From a virus, in IMG/VR virus record IMGVR_UViG_3300006919_000383, positions 1 through 25,927 of that record: a stretch of 25,927 nt of DNA, one strand, 5' to 3'. The position numbers were made by a program, and so were the translations under genes. The notes under the pieces are model-generated. The model had not been told where the DNA came from. It did no database searches and saw only the letters and a program-made list of their open reading frames with translations. Of the stretch, positions 2 to 25,759 are shown piece after piece. The stretch's first letter is position 1; each line of letters starts with the position of its first letter.

Positions 2-196
2 CTGCGACCACTGTTCCAACGCAAACTGTGGAAACTAATGAGGAAGAAGCGTGTATTCGACAAGCGAGTCAAGATGTACATGCTGAACCAGGACTGGCTC
101 AAGATACGGAAACAGAAGGATCGAAGGAGGCGTAGGGTGCTAAGGAAGGTGTTCAAGGCCACACAACTGGCCTATATCCGACGTGTTTGTGCGTGA
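2..196 (+). CDS. Basic hypothetical protein, probably 5'-truncated by the window edge
   Basis: The frame is open from base 2 to a TGA at 194-196 and encodes about 64 very basic residues, with a run of five arginines near the middle and many Lys, Trp and Tyr. An in-frame ATG at 38-40 would give a 52-aa protein, so the gene may be either partial or complete. Its stop codon directly abuts the stop of the minus-strand gene beginning at 197, which supports a real convergent gene in this tightly packed genome. The charge suggests nucleic-acid binding, but that is inference. I do not recognise the family. Only one other plus-strand gene occurs in the window, at 17135-17413. Confidence 0.5.
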   Translation: MRPLFQRKLWKLMRKKRVFDKRVKMYMLNQDWLKIRKQKDRRRRRVLRKVFKATQLAYIRRVCA

Positions 197-4443: not shown

Positions 4444-4452
4444 TGTAGAAGT

Positions 4453-9635: not shown

Positions 9636-11045
9636 CTATGCGTTGTAGAACGGGATGATCCTGTCGGCACCCGCGATCTTGATCTTAAGGTAGCCCACTG
9701 GGTTGGCGGTCAATGCCGACGCCGCTCCGTTGGCGCCTATTGTGCTCTGTGTAGCGGTGTTGAAGTCCACCACTCCTGTTCCTTGTGTGCTCACGACAAT
9801 GTCTCCGTTTGACGTGTCGTTTTGTATTGTGTCAGCCCTCAAAGTGGTTATCTCTGCCAGGGTTGCCTGGAACTCTGCGGCTGTCACCACTCCACCCAGT
9901 GCCAAAGTTTCATTGGCCAGTGGTGAGATTGTGATTCCACCCGAAGTAGATGATATTGTGTTGGCGTCCATTCTCAGGTTGTCGACGTTTAGTTGTCCGG
10001 TGACTGTTGCCGTGCCTGTGATGTTGGTAGGGCCTGTCAGATTGATGGCGCCCGTGCCCGATGGATCGATGTCCACATCACCGTTGGTGTCCGTTGTGAT
10101 CTTGCCCTGTGCGTCGATGTTGAGATCCCCTATGTTGAGCGTACCCGTTGTCAGTGACCCTGATATGGTCTGGTTACCGGTTGTGGTTATGTCAGCGGTG
10201 CTCAGTGTTCCTGAAACCGATGCGTTACCTGTTATGTTTGTTGCCGCACCTAATTCGATTGTTCCTGTTCCTTGTGGATTTATGGTTATGTTGGCGTTTG
10301 ATCCATTTGATGTGATATCATTTGTGGTCAACGACGTCGTTGTGGTCACCCCGTTGATCGATGGTGAAGATATAGTAGGACTGGTCAAAACTTTGTTGGT
10401 CAATGTTTGTGAACCTGTCAAAGTGACAACCGTTGAATCGATCGCTGTAGTAACTGTGTTACCTGTCGCGCTTGTAGTGATACCTGTGCCCCCTGAGAAC
10501 TGCATCACTTCTGAATCTAGGTCTATTGAATTTGTAGTGGAGTCGTCTGCCGTAAAGTCGAGATCCTGCGCAGTGTTTTGTGCATCGATGTAGGCCTTAA
10601 TAGACTGTTGTGTGGCAAGTGCTGTGGCTGAATCTGATCCCATCGCGTCCTCGTCTAGAATAGTAGTAACAGTTGCCCCTGATGCCAAAGTCAGTGAAGT
10701 TGCTAGAGTGGTTGCTCCCGACACGTTCAGTGTGCCTGTGGTCTGTATGTTCTCCGCCACGGTGATCTGTGTTGAATCGTTGGCACTGATGGTGCTTCCG
10801 TTTATGGTCACTGATCCCAGGTTGATGTTTCCCGTGCCGTTTGGTGTCACAGTGATGTCACCGTTGGTGACTCCCGTGGTTATGGCGAAGTTGTTGACGT
10901 TCATATTGGCGTCCAACGTGTTTATGTCGTTGTCCGTGCCGTACAACTCTGTAAAGTTGTCGTTGATCTTGTCGAATGCTGTTCTTAATGGATCACCCGT
11001 GCCGTCATTGGCGCTGGATCCTATGTTGATGGTTTGTTTGGCCAT
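9636..11045 (-). CDS. Tail-fibre-like repetitive protein, paralogue A (469 aa)
   Basis: The protein starts with the shared adaptor segment ANDGTGDPLRTAFDKINDNF (residues 12-31), then consists of repeated beta units in which NGDITVTPNGTGNI-type motifs (strand, Asn/Pro-Gly-Thr-Gly turn, strand) recur about every 40-50 residues, as in beta-helical or trimeric fibres. Asn, Thr, Ser and Gly dominate and Cys is absent. The tail ends with VGYLKIKIAGADRIIPFYNA, a strand pair often found at the tip of phage structural proteins. A CTAAATA late-type box and an AGGAG ribosome-binding site lie before the ATG. It probably contributes to host recognition or decoration of the tail. Confidence 0.8.
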   Translation of the reverse strand: MAKQTINIGSSANDGTGDPLRTAFDKINDNFTELYGTDNDINTLDANMNVNNFAITTGVTNGDITVTPNGTGNINLGSVTINGSTISANDSTQITVAENIQTTGTLNVSGATTLATSLTLASGATVTTILDEDAMGSDSATALATQQSIKAYIDAQNTAQDLDFTADDSTTNSIDLDSEVMQFSGGTGITTSATGNTVTTAIDSTVVTLTGSQTLTNKVLTSPTISSPSINGVTTTTSLTTNDITSNGSNANITINPQGTGTIELGAATNITGNASVSGTLSTADITTTGNQTISGSLTTGTLNIGDLNIDAQGKITTDTNGDVDIDPSGTGAINLTGPTNITGTATVTGQLNVDNLRMDANTISSTSGGITISPLANETLALGGVVTAAEFQATLAEITTLRADTIQNDTSNGDIVVSTQGTGVVDFNTATQSTIGANGAASALTANPVGYLKIKIAGADRIIPFYNA

Positions 11046-11072
11046 TGGTGTAAATCTCCTGGTTTGTAGGTA

Positions 11073-11079
11073 TATTTAG
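11073..11079 (-). promoter_or_regulatory. Late-type promoter box CTAAATATACC
   Basis: On the minus strand CTAAATATACC lies 27 bases before the ATG of paralogue A and upstream of an AGGAG ribosome-binding site. The 62-bp intergenic stretch holds no other clear element. Confidence 0.5.
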
Positions 11080-11107
11080 CAAGTATTCTATAAACCTAAT
11101 GTGATTA

Positions 11108-12493
11108 TTATAGGTCTATCAACACACGCTGTATCTTGAACACCGTGCTGTCATCGGTTATGTTTGTGGCCTTCAGCCTCACGGTCTCGTTCAGCACGTC
11201 CACTGTGTACGTGGCCAGAGGAGCAGTGTGGTTGGTGGTGTTGCCGAAGATGCTGATGTAGGCCTCTGTGGTGCTGTCAGCACTGGGCCCGTGTACCACG
11301 TTGGCCTCCACTATCTCGAACCTGCTGTTGGTTGCGTCAGACACCGAGATGTAGTACTTGGCGCTCCTGTATGCGGTGGCGTCCCAGGTGTCGATCACAG
11401 AAGTTGCCGACGTTGCCACTGTGGCGGTGCTGTCTCCGATCTCGGAGTGGTTCAGCGTGGTGGGTGCTGAAAGATTGGCGAAACTGAGTTGGCCCGCACC
11501 GTTGGTCTGTAGGAATTCACCTGTTGATCCGTCCACTGTGGGGAATGTGAAACCGTTGATGGTGATGGTGCCTGTCCCACTGCCTGACAGTTCTAGGTCA
11601 TCATTGCTCCTGTTGGCGGATATGGTGTTGTCAGTTATGGTCACTCCGTCGATGTTCACGGCAGTGCTGGTGGTCACGGTGGTGAACGTGCCCGCGGCCG
11701 GGGTCGTTGCGCCTATCACTGTGCCGTCTATGGTGCCACCGTTGATGTCCACGTCCGATGTTATCACCACACTGCCAGTGCCCGCGGCGGTCAGCACCAG
11801 GTCGGAGTTGCTCTGCGTGGTGGTGATCTCGTTGTCGGTGATGTTGACGTTGCCGTCCACTGTGAGGTTGTCTATGATGACCGCACCTGTGCCACCTGGC
11901 TCAAGTCGTATGTCCGCGTTGGAGGTGGATGATATGATGTTGTCATTGAATGTGAGGTTGTCTATGGTGGTCGTGCCTGCCAGGCTCGTGGTACCGGTCA
12001 CTGTCAATGTTGATAGACTGGTCAGCCCAGAGGGAACGTCCAATGTGGATCCTAAACTCACGGCACCATCTATGGTGGTGGTGCCAGACACATTCAGGGC
12101 TCCGTCCACGAGTAGATCTTCGTTCACATTGATGGCCGCTGAGTCGTCCGAGCTCAGTGTCGTGCCACTTATCTTGATTGAGTTGACCATGACCGACCCC
12201 GTGCCAGATGGTAAGAGATTTATGTCATCGTTGGACCTCGTGCCCTCTATGTTGTTGTCGTTGAATCGTATGGCTGGCATAGACACCGCACCCGTGCCCG
12301 CGGGCTTGAAAACTATGTCGTCGTTGCTCCTGGTGGCCCTGATCTCGTTGCCGGAGAATTCCAGGTCTCCGCCCGACAGTGGCGACAGGTACAGTTCGGT
12401 GAACATCTCGTTGACCTTCTGCATGGCCACACGCAGGTTATCACCCGTTCCATCATTGGCGTTGGTTCCTACGTTCAGTGTCTGTTGTGCCAT
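11108..12493 (-). CDS. Tail-fibre-like repetitive protein, paralogue B (461 aa)
   Basis: Residues 1-35 repeat the adaptor (ANDGTGDNLRVAMQKVNEMF). Residues 40-320 are a string of beta units marked by RSNDDIVFKPAGTGAV-like motifs. The last 120 residues form a separate C-terminal domain starting near SVIDTWDATAYRSAKYYISV and ending FKIQRVLIDL. That domain is shared with the neighbouring 463-aa paralogue. The architecture is adaptor, repetitive shaft and globular tip. Only four bases separate its start from the stop of paralogue C and there is no late box between them, so the two are expected on one transcript. Nucleotide blocks nearly identical to its neighbours suggest duplication and recombination. 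Confidence 0.82.
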   Translation of the reverse strand: MAQQTLNVGTNANDGTGDNLRVAMQKVNEMFTELYLSPLSGGDLEFSGNEIRATRSNDDIVFKPAGTGAVSMPAIRFNDNNIEGTRSNDDINLLPSGTGSVMVNSIKISGTTLSSDDSAAINVNEDLLVDGALNVSGTTTIDGAVSLGSTLDVPSGLTSLSTLTVTGTTSLAGTTTIDNLTFNDNIISSTSNADIRLEPGGTGAVIIDNLTVDGNVNITDNEITTTQSNSDLVLTAAGTGSVVITSDVDINGGTIDGTVIGATTPAAGTFTTVTTSTAVNIDGVTITDNTISANRSNDDLELSGSGTGTITINGFTFPTVDGSTGEFLQTNGAGQLSFANLSAPTTLNHSEIGDSTATVATSATSVIDTWDATAYRSAKYYISVSDATNSRFEIVEANVVHGPSADSTTEAYISIFGNTTNHTAPLATYTVDVLNETVRLKATNITDDSTVFKIQRVLIDL

Positions 12494-12497
12494 CTTT

Positions 12498-13889
12498 TTA
12501 AACCTCTATCACTCGTTTCACCAGTTTAACAACCTGGTCGTTTGTGTTATTTACTGTTCCTAGCAATCTAACGTTACCGCCTGAGACGTCCACGGACAGT
12601 TGTAAGGGCTCGTACGCGGTGGATCCGTCGCCTGTGCCATTGCCTGACCTGCCAAAAGTGCTGATGTAGGCCGTGGATCCGTCGTGCGTGACGTTGGCCT
12701 CTGTGAGGCTGTACCTGTCGGCCGTTGTGTCCGACACCTGTACGTGGTACTTGACGCTACGGTATGTGGTAGCGGACCACGAGTCTATGACCTGTGCGGC
12801 GGAACTCGCGCCCAGCACCGTGGCGGTGGCGTCCTGTACATCAGTGTTTGAGACCACGAACGGTGGTGCGCTCTCCCAAGTAACTGTCTTGGCGCCGTCG
12901 GTCCTTAGCAGTTGTCCGCCGAACCCATCTGTGTTGGGCAGTTGGAATCCGTTCATCTTGACGTGCCCGGTGCCACTGGCTGTGATCGTCAGTGACTCGT
13001 TGGACCTAGTGGTAGTGATCTTGTTGTCTGTTATCGTTATGCCCGCGGTGTTGGCGGTGTGTAATGACAGAGATTCGAAAGTGGCCTCCACTGGAGTGTT
13101 GCCACCTATCACCGTGTTGTCTATGTTTCCTTGGTCCAGATCTATCTTGCTGATCCTTACCACGCCGGATCCGTTTGCGGACAACACCAGGTCCGAGTCG
13201 GAGTTGATCACACGGATGACGTTGTCCGTTAGGTTGATGTTGGAATCAATGGTGAGGTTTGACACGTTGACCACCCCCGTGCCCCCGGGCGTCAGCCTCA
13301 GGTCAGCGTTGGATGAAGTTGAAATGATGTTGTCATTGAACGTGAGGTTGTCCACTGTGGTCACCCCAGCGAAACTGCTGTTGCCGGAAACCGTCAGCGA
13401 GGACAATGTTGTGAGTCCATCGACGTCCAAAGTGGAGTTTATTGTGACTGGTCCGGAATCCACCAGGCCTCCCGTGCTGTTGGCAGTCAGTGATCCGTCA
13501 ACGTTCAAGGTCTCGTTGATGTTGACCAGGGAGGAGTCAGAGGACGACATAGACGTGCCTGAGAATGACAGTGAACCGATCACCACGGAGCCAGTGCCAC
13601 TGGCCTTGATCACGAGGTCATCGTTGCTCCTGTTGGCTCGGATGTTGTTGTCATCTATGGTGATTCCCGGGAACACAATGGCGCCCAGGCCCCCCGACGG
13701 TTTGAACACCAGGTCCGCGTTGCTCTGCGTGGTGCTGATGTTGTTGCCCAACAGTCCTATCTGGGTCTGGGCTAGCGCTGTAGCGTACAGTTCCGTGAAG
13801 TTCTCGTTGATCTTGATGCCCGCGCCTCTGATGGTATCGCCCGTGCCGTCGTCCGCCGTTACACCTATGTTGATCAGTTGTTGTGCCAT
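12498..13889 (-). CDS. Tail-fibre-like repetitive protein, paralogue C (463 aa)
   Basis: Same architecture as paralogue B: adaptor (ADDGTGDTIRGAGIKINENF, 11-30), repeats of the SNADLVFKPSGGLGAI and SNDDLVIKASGTGSV type, and the same C-terminal domain (VIDSWSATTYRSVKYHVQV to VKRVIEV). The C-terminal domain carries an extra GRSGNGTGDGSTAYEP loop that paralogue B has in shorter form, so the exposed tip has diverged more than the framework. A GCTAAATACC late box lies 11 bases before the ATG, too close for a long leader. It is presumably a virion protein that contacts the host surface. Confidence 0.82.
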   Translation of the reverse strand: MAQQLINIGVTADDGTGDTIRGAGIKINENFTELYATALAQTQIGLLGNNISTTQSNADLVFKPSGGLGAIVFPGITIDDNNIRANRSNDDLVIKASGTGSVVIGSLSFSGTSMSSSDSSLVNINETLNVDGSLTANSTGGLVDSGPVTINSTLDVDGLTTLSSLTVSGNSSFAGVTTVDNLTFNDNIISTSSNADLRLTPGGTGVVNVSNLTIDSNINLTDNVIRVINSDSDLVLSANGSGVVRISKIDLDQGNIDNTVIGGNTPVEATFESLSLHTANTAGITITDNKITTTRSNESLTITASGTGHVKMNGFQLPNTDGFGGQLLRTDGAKTVTWESAPPFVVSNTDVQDATATVLGASSAAQVIDSWSATTYRSVKYHVQVSDTTADRYSLTEANVTHDGSTAYISTFGRSGNGTGDGSTAYEPLQLSVDVSGGNVRLLGTVNNTNDQVVKLVKRVIEV

Positions 13890-13899
13890 AATTTAATGG

Positions 13900-13906
13900 T
13901 ATTTAG
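13900..13906 (-). promoter_or_regulatory. Late-type promoter box GCTAAATACC
   Basis: Between the stop of the LamG-like gene and the ATG of paralogue C, the minus strand reads GCTAAATACC, beginning 17 bases before the ATG. The spacing allows only a few transcribed bases before the start codon and no purine-rich ribosome-binding site is visible. Confidence 0.55.
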
Positions 13907-13912
13907 CGGATA

Positions 13913-14683
13913 CTACAGGCCGTAGATGGCCTTGGCGTCGTTGTAGTTTGACGTGACTTCCGCACCGCTCAGGGCCCTGTCGTACACACGCATTATGCCC
14001 ACACGACCGCTCAACCAACCCGCCGTTGAGCTGTTATAGGTGGTTGTGTCCTCCGCTCCGAACGCCAGGTACCAACTGCTCTCGCCATCGTCATCGGGAC
14101 TGTCGAATGTCATTGCCACACCGCCGCCCCCGTTGGCGCCGTTTAGGTAACCCCTCAGAGTGGTGCCATCATAGGTCCTGACCACGTGCTTCCACGCACC
14201 CGTCAGTGTGCCCGAACCCGCCACGTCACGTGTGATGGCCGTGCCGTTCCACAGTCCCGTTATGATCTGCTGGAATGGTCCCACCTGTAGGATCTGTGAG
14301 CCAGCGAAGTGATAAGTTGATGTGGCTGGATTGTTTGTGCTACCCAGGTCACTCCACAACGAGTCATTTACCGCATTGAGGTAAACCCACATCTCCACGG
14401 TGTGCGTGTCCGCGGCGCTGATGGCCGAGTAGCAGTTGCCGGTCACGATGTAGTCGTTGACACCGTCCAGTGTGAAGTATGTGTTGTCCGTGTGTGTGGC
14501 TCCCACTATGGTGCCGTCGATGCCGTTGCCGGAGAGGTCCGTCAGTGTGCTTCCTGATCCCGAATAACTCAGTGGGTTGGCTGGATCATAGTAGGCAGTC
14601 AACCCAGAGCTGACAAAGTCCGGTGCCGAGTAACCCGCTCCTGCTGTTGTGGTCAGCACTGATGATGAGAATCTCAATGGCAT
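13913..14683 (-). CDS. LamG/concanavalin-like lectin-domain virion protein
   Basis: This 256-aa protein has a short N-terminal region, then a LamG-type jelly-roll (about residues 28-250). Typical landmarks are GLTAYYDPANPLSY, LTDLSGNGIDGTIVGAT, YFTLDGVNDYI, VEMWVYLNA, WKHVVRTYDGTTLRGYLNG, WLSGRVGIMRVYDRALS and the closing EVTSNYNDAKAIYGL. This set is characteristic of the laminin G/concanavalin A superfamily (Laminin_G_3-like). Such domains bind sugars and occur in phage fibre and baseplate proteins. It lies between fibre paralogues, 8 bp from the 803-aa gene, with GGGGAC as ribosome-binding site. No signal peptide is seen. A glycan-binding tip or decoration protein is the likely role. Confidence 0.85.
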   Translation of the reverse strand: MPLRFSSSVLTTTAGAGYSAPDFVSSGLTAYYDPANPLSYSGSGSTLTDLSGNGIDGTIVGATHTDNTYFTLDGVNDYIVTGNCYSAISAADTHTVEMWVYLNAVNDSLWSDLGSTNNPATSTYHFAGSQILQVGPFQQIITGLWNGTAITRDVAGSGTLTGAWKHVVRTYDGTTLRGYLNGANGGGGVAMTFDSPDDDGESSWYLAFGAEDTTTYNSSTAGWLSGRVGIMRVYDRALSGAEVTSNYNDAKAIYGL

Positions 14684-14691
14684 GGTGTCCC

Positions 14692-17103
14692 CTATGCCGC
14701 GTACGCCTTGGCTATGTTGCCCAGATAGTTGGTGCCGTCGTTGAATATGGTCACAACGTCAATGGCGTTGCCCGCCGTTGAAAGCGTTGGTGTGCCACCC
14801 GCGAACTTGACCGCTGTGGATCCATCAGTGCCGAATGAGCCCGTGTTTGATCCGCCACCGTCCTGTGTGATGATTATGGTGCCCGTCGCACCCGTTGGTA
14901 GATTTGTGACAACGAATTGTGTGTTCTCCGCCAGTGTCACAGTGTGTACTGATGCTACTGAAAAGTCCACAGTGATGGTCGAACTGGATGTCAATGTGTT
15001 GATGGCCTCGATGTAACCTTTGTTGATCTTCAATGCCGAGTTGGCCACGACCTGTCCCGTGCCTCCTGGATTTAGATTTAGGTCAGCGTTGGATGATGTT
15101 GAGATGATGTTGTCGTTGAAACTGATGTTGTCGATGGTCTGTGTGCCCGTGTTCTGTAGGTAGTTTGACAGATCAGGACCAGTGACGGTTAAAGTATCAC
15201 CTGATACTGCTGTTGTAATATTTTGAGTTCCTGCTATCTTGATGGTCTCACCTAAATTGATAGTCGTTCCAGTCGAATCATCACCGACCACAATAAATTT
15301 ACCTGCGTCTGTGATAATGTAGCCCTGTGATGTGACAAATGACTGCGTGGCGTATGAACTCAGATCCGGTCCTGTTATGGTCAGTGTGTCACCACTGACG
15401 GCAGTCGTTATGTTCTGTGTTCCCGCTATCTTGATGGTCTCGCCCGAATTCAAAGTTGTGCCTGTAGAGTCATCGCCAACTATGGTTGTGGTTGAATTTG
15501 TTATGTAGCCCTGTGATGTCACGTATGACTGAGTGGCGTATGAACTTAGGTCTGGTCCTGTTATGGTCAGTGTGTCACCTGACACCGCTGTGGTGATGTT
15601 CTGTGTTCCAGCGAATTTAAAAGTTTCGCCCTGTGTTACCGCAGTTCCCGTTGAGTCATCACCAACGAACGTGATGTTGTGTGATGAAGAAGACAGTTGC
15701 GTGTCCACGTAGCCCTTGGTGGCCGCGTCCGTGGTGGCCGTCGGCGTGCCCAGGTCCGTGATCTTGTTGGAGTTCATCGATATGGTGTTGTAGGCGTCCA
15801 CGCTGTCGTGTAGGAACAGGTTGCTGTTGACGTTCACACTGCCCGTGAACGTGGAATCTGACTGTATGGTTCCCTGTGGGTTGGCCGTTCCCAGCACTCC
15901 ACTGTATGGCGTGACCGCGTATGTGGTGATGGGGTCTCCCACCCTGAACGCCAGGATGTTGTCCGTGGCCCCCGCCCCCAGTCCGCTACCGCCGGTCAGC
16001 AGTTTGAGGCTGACCAGGTTGTTGCCTGATGTGGTGGCCGAGAATGTTGCCGGGACTATGGTGGTTCCTGATGGATCATCGAAGGTGCCCGTTATCGGAT
16101 CAGTCGGCAGTGCGTCACCGACTACCCAGCCGCTGTAGCCCGCCACGTTCTCCACGTAATATTTGATATTGGTCCATGTGCTCTGTTCATAGAACACAGT
16201 GGTACCGTCGTAGTTGAACAGTGATCCTAATACGTCGTTCTCTCCACCGTAGGGCAGAGAGGTGGGGTCAACGAAGAGACCTGACAGTCCCTGTGTGCCT
16301 TCCACTCCACCTGGTATCTTGAGTATGCCACCCACGTTGGTTATGGACGCGCCCGCTATGTTGATCGATCCTGGTCCCACATACAAGGTGTGCCATCTCT
16401 TGGAGGCACTGCCCAGGTATTGCGAGTTGTCCGTGGCCGGAAGGATGTCTCCTCCCACCTCCATCGCGCCATCCACGTTCAACTGCTCGTTGATGTTGAT
16501 CGCCGTTGAACTGCCTGAACTGATGCTGGTGCCACTGAAGGTGAAGTCACCTATCCTGTTGAACGTGCCATCCACTGTGATGTCGCTGGACACCCCCAGT
16601 GTGCCCTGCACTGATGTGTTGTCGAAAAGTGATATGTTGCCCGTACCTGACGTGGTCAGTGTGAGGGCCGCGTTCGACGGTGCTGATATCGTGCTACCGG
16701 TTATTGTTAGGTCACCGGTCCTTGATGTTGCGTCCACGTAGGCCTTGGTGGCGGCGTCCTGTGCTGAAGTGGGATCTGTGACATTTATTATCCTGCTGGT
16801 GTCAACGTCGATGGCCCCAGTGCCGTTGGGCGATATGGTGATGTTGGAATTCGTCGTAGTGTTGGTGATGGTGGCGTCTATGACCAGCCTGCCCGTGCCA
16901 TTGGGATCGATGGTAAGATCGCCATTGGTGTTGTCAGTGCTGATGGTGTTGCCCGCGAACGAGATGTTGCTGAACGTGCCGTCCGAGCCCAGTTCGTTGT
17001 AGATCTCCGTGAAGTTGGCGTTGACCTTGGTCATCGCCGTGCGTAGGGTGTCGCCCGTTGCCGGATTGCCCGCCGCCCCTGTGTCTATCGTAAGTTTCGC
17101 CAT
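14692..17103 (-). CDS. Long tail-fibre-like protein, paralogue D (803 aa)
   Basis: The longest of the paralogues begins with the same adaptor (NPATGDTLRTAMTKVNANF, 13-31). Beta repeats with GTG turns follow, plus two PTSAQDAATKAYVDA/TPTATTDAATKGYVDT segments, a classic phage fibre repeat around 108-122 and later. A central globular insertion (about 235-420) contains the YVENVAGYSGWVVGDALP stretch. Three near-identical units follow, built from GTQNITTAVSGDTLTITGP and SSYATQSYVTSQGYI, each about 63 aa. The C-terminus is a compact beta domain (TQFVVTNLPTGATGTIIIT, then NYLGNIAKAYAA). An AATAAATACGC late box lies upstream. The function is probably a long tail fibre or a shaft protein. Confidence 0.83.
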   Translation of the reverse strand: MAKLTIDTGAAGNPATGDTLRTAMTKVNANFTEIYNELGSDGTFSNISFAGNTISTDNTNGDLTIDPNGTGRLVIDATITNTTTNSNITISPNGTGAIDVDTSRIINVTDPTSAQDAATKAYVDATSRTGDLTITGSTISAPSNAALTLTTSGTGNISLFDNTSVQGTLGVSSDITVDGTFNRIGDFTFSGTSISSGSSTAININEQLNVDGAMEVGGDILPATDNSQYLGSASKRWHTLYVGPGSINIAGASITNVGGILKIPGGVEGTQGLSGLFVDPTSLPYGGENDVLGSLFNYDGTTVFYEQSTWTNIKYYVENVAGYSGWVVGDALPTDPITGTFDDPSGTTIVPATFSATTSGNNLVSLKLLTGGSGLGAGATDNILAFRVGDPITTYAVTPYSGVLGTANPQGTIQSDSTFTGSVNVNSNLFLHDSVDAYNTISMNSNKITDLGTPTATTDAATKGYVDTQLSSSSHNITFVGDDSTGTAVTQGETFKFAGTQNITTAVSGDTLTITGPDLSSYATQSYVTSQGYITNSTTTIVGDDSTGTTLNSGETIKIAGTQNITTAVSGDTLTITGPDLSSYATQSFVTSQGYIITDAGKFIVVGDDSTGTTINLGETIKIAGTQNITTAVSGDTLTVTGPDLSNYLQNTGTQTIDNISFNDNIISTSSNADLNLNPGGTGQVVANSALKINKGYIEAINTLTSSSTITVDFSVASVHTVTLAENTQFVVTNLPTGATGTIIITQDGGGSNTGSFGTDGSTAVKFAGGTPTLSTAGNAIDVVTIFNDGTNYLGNIAKAYAA
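15163..15675. repeat. Three tandem coding repeats of about 190 bp in the 803-aa gene
   Basis: A shared word (GAGTCATC or GAATCATC on the plus strand) recurs at 15275, 15467 and 15653, giving periods of 192 and 186 bp. Each unit encodes a GDDSTGT segment, a GTQNITTAVSGDTLTITGP strand pair and, in the first two, SSYATQS, VTSQGYI. The copies differ mostly in silent or conservative positions, so the number of units could change by slippage or recombination and alter shaft length. Confidence 0.85.
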
Positions 17104-21103: not shown

Positions 21104-21361
21104 TCAGTTCAACCTCTTGTTGATCTTGCTGTCAAGTTCGTGTTGGAACGCCTCCTCTCTGATGCGATCCGTTAGTTCGTTGGGTATATTTAACTCACCG
21201 TCAATGATGCTCTTGAGGAAATGTATCAGCACAGAGAACTCCGGCCTGTTGCTCACAGTTTCTGGGTCAACGCCGTGCTGTTCCATGGCGTTCAGCATGG
21301 CCTCCGATGTGTCCACCAGTGCGGTCAGGCTCTTCTTGTGCTTGTCGAAGTGCTGGCTCAT
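21104..21361 (-). CDS. Small helical hypothetical protein (85 aa)
   Basis: The 85-aa sequence is mostly helical and acidic: HKKSLTALVDTSEAMLNAME, an FSVLIHFLKSIIDGELNIP centre and an EEAFQHELDSKINKRLN end. The compact pattern suggests a helical bundle or a dimerising small phage protein. Its ATG overlaps the stop of the LSm-like gene by four bases (21358-21361), so the two are probably coupled. No motif assigns a function. Confidence 0.7.
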   Translation of the reverse strand: MSQHFDKHKKSLTALVDTSEAMLNAMEQHGVDPETVSNRPEFSVLIHFLKSIIDGELNIPNELTDRIREEAFQHELDSKINKRLN

Positions 21362-21663
21362 GTGATTATCTTGGGCTTGGCGGGCGTCTGTATGGTCGAG
21401 AATATCCGCTTGTACTCGCCCTCGATCTTGTCATTGATGTACGCGATGGATATTATCTGCAGTTTTGATATCATGATCACCTCGTCCTGGTTGGCAGTGG
21501 AGAAAAACGTACCGAACGCCAGACCCTGAGGTCCCTGCATCAGCACAAGTGCCTTCTCTATGCTCACGCTAGAGTCGTCGTTGCCTTGGTATTTCGCTAT
21601 GACCTCTTCCCCGGAAGCCAGTTTAAGAGTGATAAGATCTCCATCTTTGTATTTTTCAAACAT
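21358..21663 (-). CDS. LSm/SH3-like small protein
   Basis: A 101-aa protein with a strand-rich pattern GDLITLKLASGEEVIAKY, then SVSIEKALVLMQGPQG, FGTFFSTA and a MISKLQIISIAYI strand. The order (strand, G-E-E-V turn, strand, long strand, final strand) resembles the Sm1/Sm2 barrel of LSm/Hfq-like proteins, and related-looking proteins occur in marine phages as I recall. RNA binding is possible but not shown. A promoter with perfect TTGACA and TATAAT boxes ends six bases before the ATG, so it likely starts a transcript covering itself and the 85-aa gene. Confidence 0.65.
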   Translation of the reverse strand: MFEKYKDGDLITLKLASGEEVIAKYQGNDDSSVSIEKALVLMQGPQGLAFGTFFSTANQDEVIMISKLQIISIAYINDKIEGEYKRIFSTIQTPAKPKIIT

Positions 21664-21669
21664 AACCTT

Positions 21670-21697
21670 ATTATAGACTATTGTGCGAGCTTGTCAA
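21670..21697 (-). promoter_or_regulatory. Consensus sigma-70 promoter before the LSm-like gene
   Basis: On the minus strand TTGACA (21692-21697), a 16-bp spacer and TATAAT (21670-21675) are both perfect and end six bases before the ATG at 21663. The -35 box is inside codons for the end of the glycosylase and its stop codon is in the spacer. A start point seven bases past the -10 would fall on the A of the ATG. Confidence 0.75.
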
Positions 21698-22088
21698 TGT
21701 ATTTCCGCAACTCCTTGTCTTGTACGTTGGGCGGAATCCTATCCATGAAGAATATCTGGTAACTGTCTGATCCGTACTTGCCGATGCCGTGCAGGTCACT
21801 GGCCTCCCTCTTGTCCCAGGTGAGGTACTGTTCGGTCATTTTACGTATCCTTTTGGATCTCACCTCCCACATACCCAGGGGTCGCAACATCTCTTGTTGG
21901 GTCTTCAACCTGCCACGCAGGTATGCCTGGGGGTTGGGATATCGCTTAAACAGTCGTGGTAATATAATTTTAACGTGTTTCCTGTATGTCAGGTTCAGGC
22001 ACATCACGGACACCATGTGTTTCCACTCTCGGTGTGGTCCGCGTATCTGCTGTTGCACCATGAGGTGATCCACCATTGGTCTGATCAT
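21678..22088 (-). CDS. MBD4-like HhH-GPD DNA glycosylase
   Basis: A 136-aa protein that parallels the catalytic domain of the vertebrate MBD4 thymine/uracil DNA glycosylase. Landmarks in order are a CLNLTYRKHVKIILPRLFKRYP helix pair (30-51), LRPLGMWEVRSKRIRK (68-83), YLTWDKR, the hairpin LHGIGKYGSDSYQIFF (99-114) and QDKELRKYIDKL (123-134), whose Asp124 fits the catalytic aspartate. Tyr105 takes the place of the lysine used by bifunctional EndoIII, so a monofunctional glycosylase is expected. It probably removes T or U from G mismatches or another oxidised or deaminated base. Met10 (after GGTGGA) is an alternative start. A perfect sigma-70 promoter precedes it. Confidence 0.75.
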   Translation of the reverse strand: MIRPMVDHLMVQQQIRGPHREWKHMVSVMCLNLTYRKHVKIILPRLFKRYPNPQAYLRGRLKTQQEMLRPLGMWEVRSKRIRKMTEQYLTWDKREASDLHGIGKYGSDSYQIFFMDRIPPNVQDKELRKYIDKLAQ

Positions 22089-22094
22089 GCAATT

Positions 22095-22123
22095 ATTATA
22101 GATTTGATTTTTTATTTTGTCAA
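22095..22123 (-). promoter_or_regulatory. Consensus sigma-70 promoter before the MBD4-like glycosylase gene
   Basis: On the minus strand TTGACA (22118-22123), a 17-bp spacer and TATAAT (22095-22100) match the bacterial sigma-70 consensus fully. The -35 box is made of the last codons of the 2OG-oxygenase gene and its TAA is in the spacer. Only six bases separate TATAAT from the ATG at 22088. Confidence 0.8.
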
Positions 22124-22758: not shown

Positions 22759-23394
22759 TTATTTTTTATGCAACTGCTTGTTGATGAATTTCGCCATGCC
22801 ATCATAGGTCTCCTGGAACACGTTGGAATGTTTAGACCAGTCCTTAGGCATCTCCCAACGGTCATGGTTGACCACGATCCATCTAGTGTCGGGATCCGAG
22901 TAGCCCATCAGTTTGTGGAACTGGTAGATCCAGTAACTGGGATCAACCGGTCTCTTGATGTAAGTGTAGCCTTCAGAACCTGTGTACATGTTGTTGATTT
23001 TGTCCTTCTCTAATGGGTGTAGGTCGAAGCCCAGCATGAATATGGCTTTGGGCTTGTAGGTCAGTGCCAGGTTGCCCGCATGGGGACCTGTGCCCCAGTG
23101 GAACTGATCGTCCTGTCGCTTGTCTCCCGAGTAAGGAAGGTCTGGTAATTTACGAACATTGGGCCAGGCCGCGAACTGGTCTGCCCAGTCCTTTCTAGTG
23201 AATATGGTGGTGCCCTTGCCCACAGCGTTCACAGCCTGTTGACACATGTGTCGATCGGCGCACACTAGATACTCTGTGACGAAATCTCTGTAGATCGCGT
23301 TACAACCGATCACTGTGCTGAACAGTTTTAATGGCGAGATGTCAAATCCACGCCTCGATTCACCGTTGCCTATTATGCTCACATACTTGGTCAT
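22759..23394 (-). CDS. GNGESR protein 2: GT42/DUF115-like putative glycosyltransferase
   Basis: A 211-aa paralogue of the 17408-18151 product: IIGNGESR (7-14), DISPLKLF, VIGCNAIYRDFVTEYLVCAD and a later GTGPHAGNLAL helix before IFMLGFDLHP, ending in WIVVNHDRWEMP. GNGES, the CN-x-x-Y segment and the GFD strand match the order in CstI/II sialyltransferases, suggesting the same nucleotide-sugar fold. The two copies share the N-terminal third closely but differ in their C-terminal parts, so they may use different acceptors. An ATTAAATAG late-type box lies just upstream. Whether it sialylates or transfers another acidic sugar is not determinable. Confidence 0.68.
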   Translation of the reverse strand: MTKYVSIIGNGESRRGFDISPLKLFSTVIGCNAIYRDFVTEYLVCADRHMCQQAVNAVGKGTTIFTRKDWADQFAAWPNVRKLPDLPYSGDKRQDDQFHWGTGPHAGNLALTYKPKAIFMLGFDLHPLEKDKINNMYTGSEGYTYIKRPVDPSYWIYQFHKLMGYSDPDTRWIVVNHDRWEMPKDWSKHSNVFQETYDGMAKFINKQLHKK

Positions 23395-23399
23395 AACGC

Positions 23400-23406
23400 T
23401 ATTTAA
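23400..23406 (-). promoter_or_regulatory. Late-type promoter-like box ATTAAATAGC
   Basis: On the minus strand ATTAAATAGC lies six to twelve bases before the ATG at 23394. It resembles the late boxes of the structural genes, although the upstream bases differ. It lies in the 85-bp gap between this gene and its AT-rich neighbour (23395-23479), where I see no other convincing element. Confidence 0.35.
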
Positions 23407-23479
23407 TCACCCCTTTAAACGCACACAGAAGCACACACACTGCTGGTAAACGATAACCATGGTGTGTTTGTTGTTCGTT

Positions 23480-25476: not shown

Positions 25477-25759
25477 TGTTGTTATTTACAGTGTTGATTA
25501 AATGCCAAATTGTTTTATATTGATCCCAGGACTTCTTGAGTGCTGGGTGCCGACGTCTCAGCTCGATGGCCTCCACACCCACCATCTCCAACTCATCATA
25601 CGCGGTCTGGTTGTCCCGGGCCCGCTGTGATTGTTCCACCAGTTTGCGTTCACCGTTTGGTAATTGTTCGTACACGGTCTCGCCACCATCCGGTGACGTG
25701 TAGATGGGCATGGGTATGATCTTCCTGCTGATTTTCTTTTTCCTTTTAATCTTTTTCAT
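25469..25759 (-). CDS. Small basic hypothetical protein (96 aa)
   Basis: Starts with a strongly basic stretch (MKKIKRKKKISRK), then YTSPDGGETVYEQLPNGERKLVEQS, a charged helical centre with ELRRRHPALKKSWDQYKTIW and an acidic Asn-rich tail. The SPDGGETVY pattern appears in marine phage proteins near structural genes, but I cannot name the family. The ATG overlaps the partial HIT gene by 14 bp and its stop overlaps the radical SAM gene by 8 bp, so it lies in the same operon. Confidence 0.65.
   Translation of the reverse strand: MKKIKRKKKISRKIIPMPIYTSPDGGETVYEQLPNGERKLVEQSQRARDNQTAYDELEMVGVEAIELRRRHPALKKSWDQYKTIWHLINTVNNNND

Follow-up and report, generated by a model that had tools for sequence, protein, structure and literature searches.

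Gene content and lineage of the window

The window, positions 1-25,927 of the IMG/VR record, is a 25.9 kb fragment whose genes are nearly all encoded on the minus strand. The clamp loader shares 53% identity with those of PA5oct-type Pseudomonas jumbo phages and ~37% with cyanophage and Methylophilales phage homologs; the clade to which the window belongs is a marine member of the T4 superfamily, distantly related to the PA5oct/XacN1-type jumbo phages. Clamp-loader relatives occur in a Pelagibacter MAG and a Neomarinimicrobiota MAG, but assigning a host from these genome bins was rejected, as they are probably phage contigs binned with hosts; the Neomarinimicrobiota contig is 335 kb long and is itself probably a phage genome. 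No tRNA genes that might give a host clue were found by ARAGORN in three long records. Positions 9636-17103 hold a tail-fibre-like block of four long proteins, apparent paralogs with short internal repeats and an N-terminal motif like MAxQTxNxGxxANDGTGD.

Two consensus promoters that abut start codons

The following early-type features lie in the window:

22123-22118, minus strand: -35 box TTGACA of the MBD4-like (HhH-GPD) gene, exact match
22100-22095, minus strand: -10 box TATAAT of the MBD4-like gene, exact match, spacer 17 nt
22088..22086, minus strand: ATG of the MBD4-like gene, 6 nt (AATTGC) after the -10 box
21678..22088, minus strand: MBD4-like / HhH-GPD base-excision-type protein, 136 aa, weak Pfam HhH-GPD match
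21697-21692, minus strand: -35 box TTGACA of the LSm-like gene, exact match, within the MBD4-like C-terminal codons
21675-21670, minus strand: -10 box TATAAT of the LSm-like gene, exact match, spacer 16 nt
21663..21661, minus strand: ATG of the LSm-like gene, 6 nt (AAGGTT) after the -10 box
21358..21663, minus strand: LSm-like small protein, 101 aa, phrog_527 (unknown function); the LSm label comes from the initial annotation
4481-4453, minus strand: TTGACG-17-TATAAT, promoter of the co-chaperonin gene, gap 9 to ATG 4443
3311-3284, minus strand: TAGACA-16-TACAAT, promoter of uvsE, gap 5 to ATG 3278
1590-1562, minus strand: TAGACA-17-TAATAT, promoter of the coiled-coil gene, gap 6 to ATG 1555

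The match of the MBD4-like protein to Pfam HhH-GPD (E 3e-4) is under the curated cut-off, and relatives of this protein are present in viral contigs. The initial annotation had reported perfect sigma-70 promoters before the MBD4-like and LSm-like genes, and both are present where it placed them; they are the only perfect matches to TTGACA-16/17-TATAAT in the window, where 0.01 would be expected from dinucleotide shuffles. The three weaker sites that it had listed before the co-chaperonin, uvsE and coiled-coil genes (the last being the first gene before the clamp loader) likewise have the positions and gaps it gave them. Its statement that all these boxes sit in the last codons of the upstream gene is correct for the -35 boxes, which lie in or touch those codons, but not for most of the -10 boxes, which fall in the short stretch between the genes (the one at 1590-1562 overlaps the stop codon). 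The uvsE open reading frame as listed begins at GTG 3293, upstream of ATG 3278; judging from conservation and from where the promoter lies, ATG 3278 (MIQRFG...) is the probable true start.

Conservation of the promoters and their coupling to the ATG

The MBD4-like and LSm-like promoters are near-invariant in ~80 relatives per gene from viral contigs, counts which do not represent independent events since the relatives are phylogenetically correlated. The distance between the -10 box and the ATG is 6 in 70 of 73 relatives of the MBD4-like gene and 5-8 in 82 of 85 relatives of the LSm-like gene (6 in 55 of them); the remaining three have an extra upstream ATG that was chosen by the start-calling script. 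At uvsE the gap is 6 in 31 of 38 relatives, and at the co-chaperonin gene it is 8-9 in 38 of 45. The MBD4-like -35 box is kept in nearly all of 81 distinct relatives while the sequence upstream differs, and a different gene often stands upstream of an unchanged promoter.

The -35 boxes overlap the ends of upstream coding sequence, as they might if the boxes were held in place by coding constraint or had arisen by chance in AT-rich intergenic DNA. The LSm-like -35 box lies in MBD4-like C-terminal codons that are ATT in 85 of 85 relatives and GAC in 85 of 85; elsewhere in the same genes ~24% of Ile codons are ATT and 61% of Asp codons are GAC. The boxes are thus conserved beyond coding constraint, which the initial annotation had named as a test of its proposal. 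Together with the identical boxes behind unrelated upstream genes and the ~30-fold excess over shuffles described below, these fixed synonymous positions make an origin by chance or coding constraint so improbable that it can be regarded as already refuted.

The promoters also move with their start codons. In all three relatives in which the MBD4-like start is shifted by 3 nt the gap of 6 is retained, in several relatives with uvsE starts shifted by 6 nt the gap is 5-7, and in relatives that lack the coiled-coil gene the promoter cassette otherwise found before that gene is immediately upstream of the clamp-loader ATG. These comparisons show the predicted promoter following the ATG through start-codon shifts and gene insertions. 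Such coupling argues against the idea that the start codons are mis-called and that the true start is a downstream ATG served by a ribosome-binding site of its own, leaving short normal leaders. The MBD4-like protein does have methionines at residues 5 and 10, and its S-TIM54 homolog, before which no such promoter was found, starts at the equivalent of residue 5. However, the internal MBD4-like ATG in the window has no preceding Shine-Dalgarno (SD) motif, LSm-like proteins have no nearby alternative ATG (a second in-frame ATG near the N-terminus of the LSm-like gene was looked for and none was found), and in relatives the ATG is constant and codons 2-4 show the third-position variation of coding sequence. 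Mis-called starts are thus very improbable.

Clade-wide excess of abutting promoters

A set of 1514 non-redundant gene starts from 209 related records, called with our own simple script, was scanned for TTGACA-16..18-TATAAT with at most two mismatches, and sites with a gap of 5-9 to the ATG were counted as abutting. There are 109 abutting sites compared to a shuffle mean of 3.4 (sd 1.8, maximum 8), so that the excess over shuffled sequence anticipated in the initial annotation is found among the relatives. By gap of 5, 6, 7, 8 and 9 they number 22, 53, 17, 12 and 5, with other gaps having about one each, and their spacers are 16 nt (58 sites), 17 nt (47) and 18 nt (4). When no -10 box is required, exact TTGACA peaks 28-29 nt upstream of the ATG, which is about -35 if the A is +1. 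A -35 box accompanies 75% of the -10 boxes at gap 6 versus 16-21% of those at gaps of at least 14. Controls with reversed motifs (ACAGTT/TAATAT for the early type and ATATTTAT for the late type described below), together with dinucleotide shuffles, rule out a chance origin; ATATTTAT was used instead of ATAAATAT, which overlaps the late motif TATAAATA in register. In a pattern-only scan of viral contigs for TTGACA-16..18-TATAAT-6-ATG, 83 of 124 sites among the matches listed open an ORF of at least 60 aa or one that runs off the contig end, and in a rough control an ORF was opened in 63 of 366 among the matches listed; abutting promoters may thus be widespread at low frequency.

All 110 of 110 abutting starts use ATG. 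An SD motif precedes 1.8% of abutting starts versus 27-64% in other classes, a low rate that follows in part from the geometry, as the -10 box takes up the place of an SD site; genes without an abutting promoter have SD sites at ordinary frequency. Alternatively, the promoters might be real but chiefly boost downstream genes, with the first gene translated mostly from read-through mRNA and leaderless RNA poorly translated. The packing of genes in one direction makes read-through RNA likely, and many LSm-like leaders among the relatives carry AAGG 2-4 nt before the ATG. For some abutting genes, longer read-through transcripts could additionally serve as templates for translation. As a main route this is unlikely: the abutting genes would lack an SD motif on read-through RNA too, and the 5-9 nt gap is kept when the ATG changes position or an inserted gene becomes the first, although transcription of downstream genes alone needs no such gap.

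A late-type class with the same geometry

Promoters of a second type, missed by the initial annotation, abut start codons in the same phages. The T4-late-type box TATAAATA lies next to the ATG at 80 starts, versus 6.2 in shuffles. These boxes peak at gaps of 5-8 (25, 25, 10 and 16 sites) and have a second, leadered hump at 13-30 nt, in which SD sites are present in 64%; this combination indicates the coexistence of two start styles. In the clade, host-type promoters mainly abut the ATG, as do about half of the TATAAATA promoters. The predicted leaderless-geometry class is thus more than an early one, as it includes a T4-late-like class with the same geometry. The window has two candidates:

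23400..23407, minus strand: T4-late-like box ATTAAATA, late-type leaderless candidate, 5 nt before ATG 23394
25483..25490, minus strand: T4-late-like box TGTAAATA, weak candidate, 6 nt before ATG 25476

The ATTAAATA box and its gap are identical in 22 of the 22 relatives displayed, out of 80 distinct ones; in relatives it is mostly accompanied by an upstream block AAAGGGGTGATTAAATA, and the gene downstream occupies 22759-23394. The TGTAAATA box has two relatives only and is not kept in the diverged one. Weak matches to a gp55-like late sigma factor (E about 5e-7, 33-36%) are present in records G001 (259 kb) and G002, and none was found in the shorter records searched, which are fragments.

Initiator signature and predicted transcription starts

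Were the start point of transcription set by a constant distance from the box, the initiator bases would be expected to keep that distance as the gap to the ATG varies. After TATAAT there is a pyrimidine at position 6 and a purine at position 7, and these remain at a fixed distance while the gap changes. With a gap of 6, a pyrimidine precedes the A of the ATG in 46 of 53 sites; with a gap of 8, position 6 is a pyrimidine in 11 of 12 and position 7 an A in 9 of 12; and with a gap of 9 both hold in 5 of 5. The 17 sites with a gap of 7 display no clear initiator pattern. After TATAAATA the pyrimidine and purine are at positions 5 and 6: a pyrimidine precedes the A of the ATG in 22 of 25 sites with a gap of 5, and the two bases are found in 8 of 10 and 9 of 10 sites at a gap of 7 and in 16 of 16 and 16 of 16 at a gap of 8. 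Leadered sigma-70 promoters of the control phages (below), where no start codon is involved, have a pyrimidine at position 6 in 76% and A at position 7 in 67%, and their leadered late boxes have a purine at position 6 in 80%. The sigma-70 signature of the clade agrees with the preference for starting transcription at position 7 after the -10 box (PMC5730371), and that of TATAAATA agrees with T4, in which the late box starts at -13 (PMC2988020).

By this rule the MBD4-like mRNA is predicted to start on the A of its ATG (22088), the seventh base after the -10 box (see also PMC5730371), and the LSm-like mRNA likewise on the A of its ATG (21663). The co-chaperonin mRNA is predicted to start at 4446 with a 3-nt leader. 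As the initiator is fixed relative to the box, predicted leaders range from 0 to ~3 nt, and the base signature strengthens the prediction of leaderless messages.

Proposed expression strategy

The sequence-based tests proposed in the initial annotation, and several further ones, all favored its reading. The boxes, their excess, their conservation, their coupling to the ATG and the base signature at the start site are all observed, and it seems very likely that they reflect genuine sigma-70-type promoters from which RNA polymerase initiates at the ATG's A or 1-3 bases upstream, with leaderless translation of the product. In such a scheme the promoters would be placed so that RNA polymerase begins at or next to the ATG, the mRNA would thus have no ribosome-binding leader and would have to take the leaderless route, and the ribosome would bind the 5′-terminal AUG directly. 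The real 5′ ends should then coincide with the predicted ones, and host RNA polymerase would be the enzyme. Early timing is suggested by the type of promoter and by its use ahead of genes for DNA repair and replication (a UV endonuclease, the base-excision-type protein and the clamp-loader operon).

It also seems rather more probable than the converse that this whole marine T4-superfamily lineage has fused promoter and start codon in its early program (host sigma) as well as its late one (phage sigma), with the first gene of each unit leaderless and the inner genes led by SD sites. A leaderless first gene followed by SD-led inner genes is the layout of some archaea. Starting transcription and translation on one base would remove leader-based control and shorten the genome in an abundant marine lineage, and genes of the clade would depend on leaderless initiation. 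If the lineage-wide fusion is true, translation would need 70S or leaderless-competent ribosomes during infection. Levels of initiation factors alter leaderless initiation; no phage IF3 or bS21 that might help leaderless mRNA was found in the records searched. Transcription maps of T4-like phages assume leaders with ribosome-binding sites, and the arrangement described here would predict base-exact starts for hundreds of genes and aid the correction of start codons (uvsE in the present case). A single phage superfamily would then be seen to switch between leadered and leaderless layouts, and comparison of sister lineages could be used to test why leaders exist.

Comparison with other phages and known leaderless systems

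The control phages T4, S-PM2, PA5oct, Atu_ph07, Melnitz and S-TIM54 were analyzed with the same gene caller. Their early-type sites are 2 abutting and 124 leadered, compared to 35 and 23 in the clade (Fisher p=7e-20), and their late-type sites 6 and 133, compared to 49 and 44 (Fisher p=7e-18), p-values that are too small because the sequences were treated as independent. T4 shares strong consensus sigma-70 early sites and an 8-bp late box with the clade. However, none of its 19 early-type sites abuts an ATG, bearing out the remark in the initial annotation that T4 early promoters do not have this shape; their gap is 14-45 rather than the 5-9 of the clade, and 0 of 22 late-type sites lie 4-9 nt from an ATG. 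At the T4 late promoter, transcription starts at the sixth base after the 8-bp box (PMC2988020, PMC2988021).

The cultured jumbo relative Xanthomonas phage XacN1 is like the clade in having several exact TTGACA-TATAAT sites at gaps of 6-7, and three of the four abutting sites checked match the deposited CDS start. Unlike in the clade, however, abutting sites are a minority in XacN1 (6 versus 54 leadered). XacN1 and record G001 have mixed layouts that are mainly leadered; in G001 a sharp second promoter class with a gap of ~29-33 to the ATG and a few abutting sites are present in one genome.

Among known systems, lambda cI transcribed from PRM is the classical leaderless phage mRNA made from a sigma-70 promoter, but it is one gene, whereas the arrangement in the clade is genome-wide. 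The -10 box of the clade begins ~12 nt upstream of the start codon, the position it has in the TA-led leaderless genes of bacteria, an established class that also lacks an SD site (Zheng 2011, PMC3160421; PMC12340547). The TA-led class comprises cellular genes, however, and in Deinococcus it often lacks a -35 box, while the clade has a strong consensus -35 box at 16-18 nt. According to a remark in PMC5312081, leaderless transcripts are frequent in phages. In Thermus phage phiYS40 most middle and late transcripts are leaderless, according to the account in PMC3594737, which cites Sevostyanova 2007. The host of phiYS40 is Thermus, whose own genes are often leaderless, and its leaderless transcripts belong to the middle and late classes; the present clade, on the other hand, is a marine member of the T4 superfamily in which both host-type (TTGACA/TATAAT) and T4-late-type boxes abut the ATG. 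Among open papers we found no earlier report in T4-like phages of a leaderless layout at this scale, or in both early- and late-type genes, and earlier reports may exist. As far as could be found there, what is new is the scale of the arrangement, the combination of host-type and T4-late-type promoters, their coexistence with SD-led genes, and the contrast to other T4-superfamily phages.
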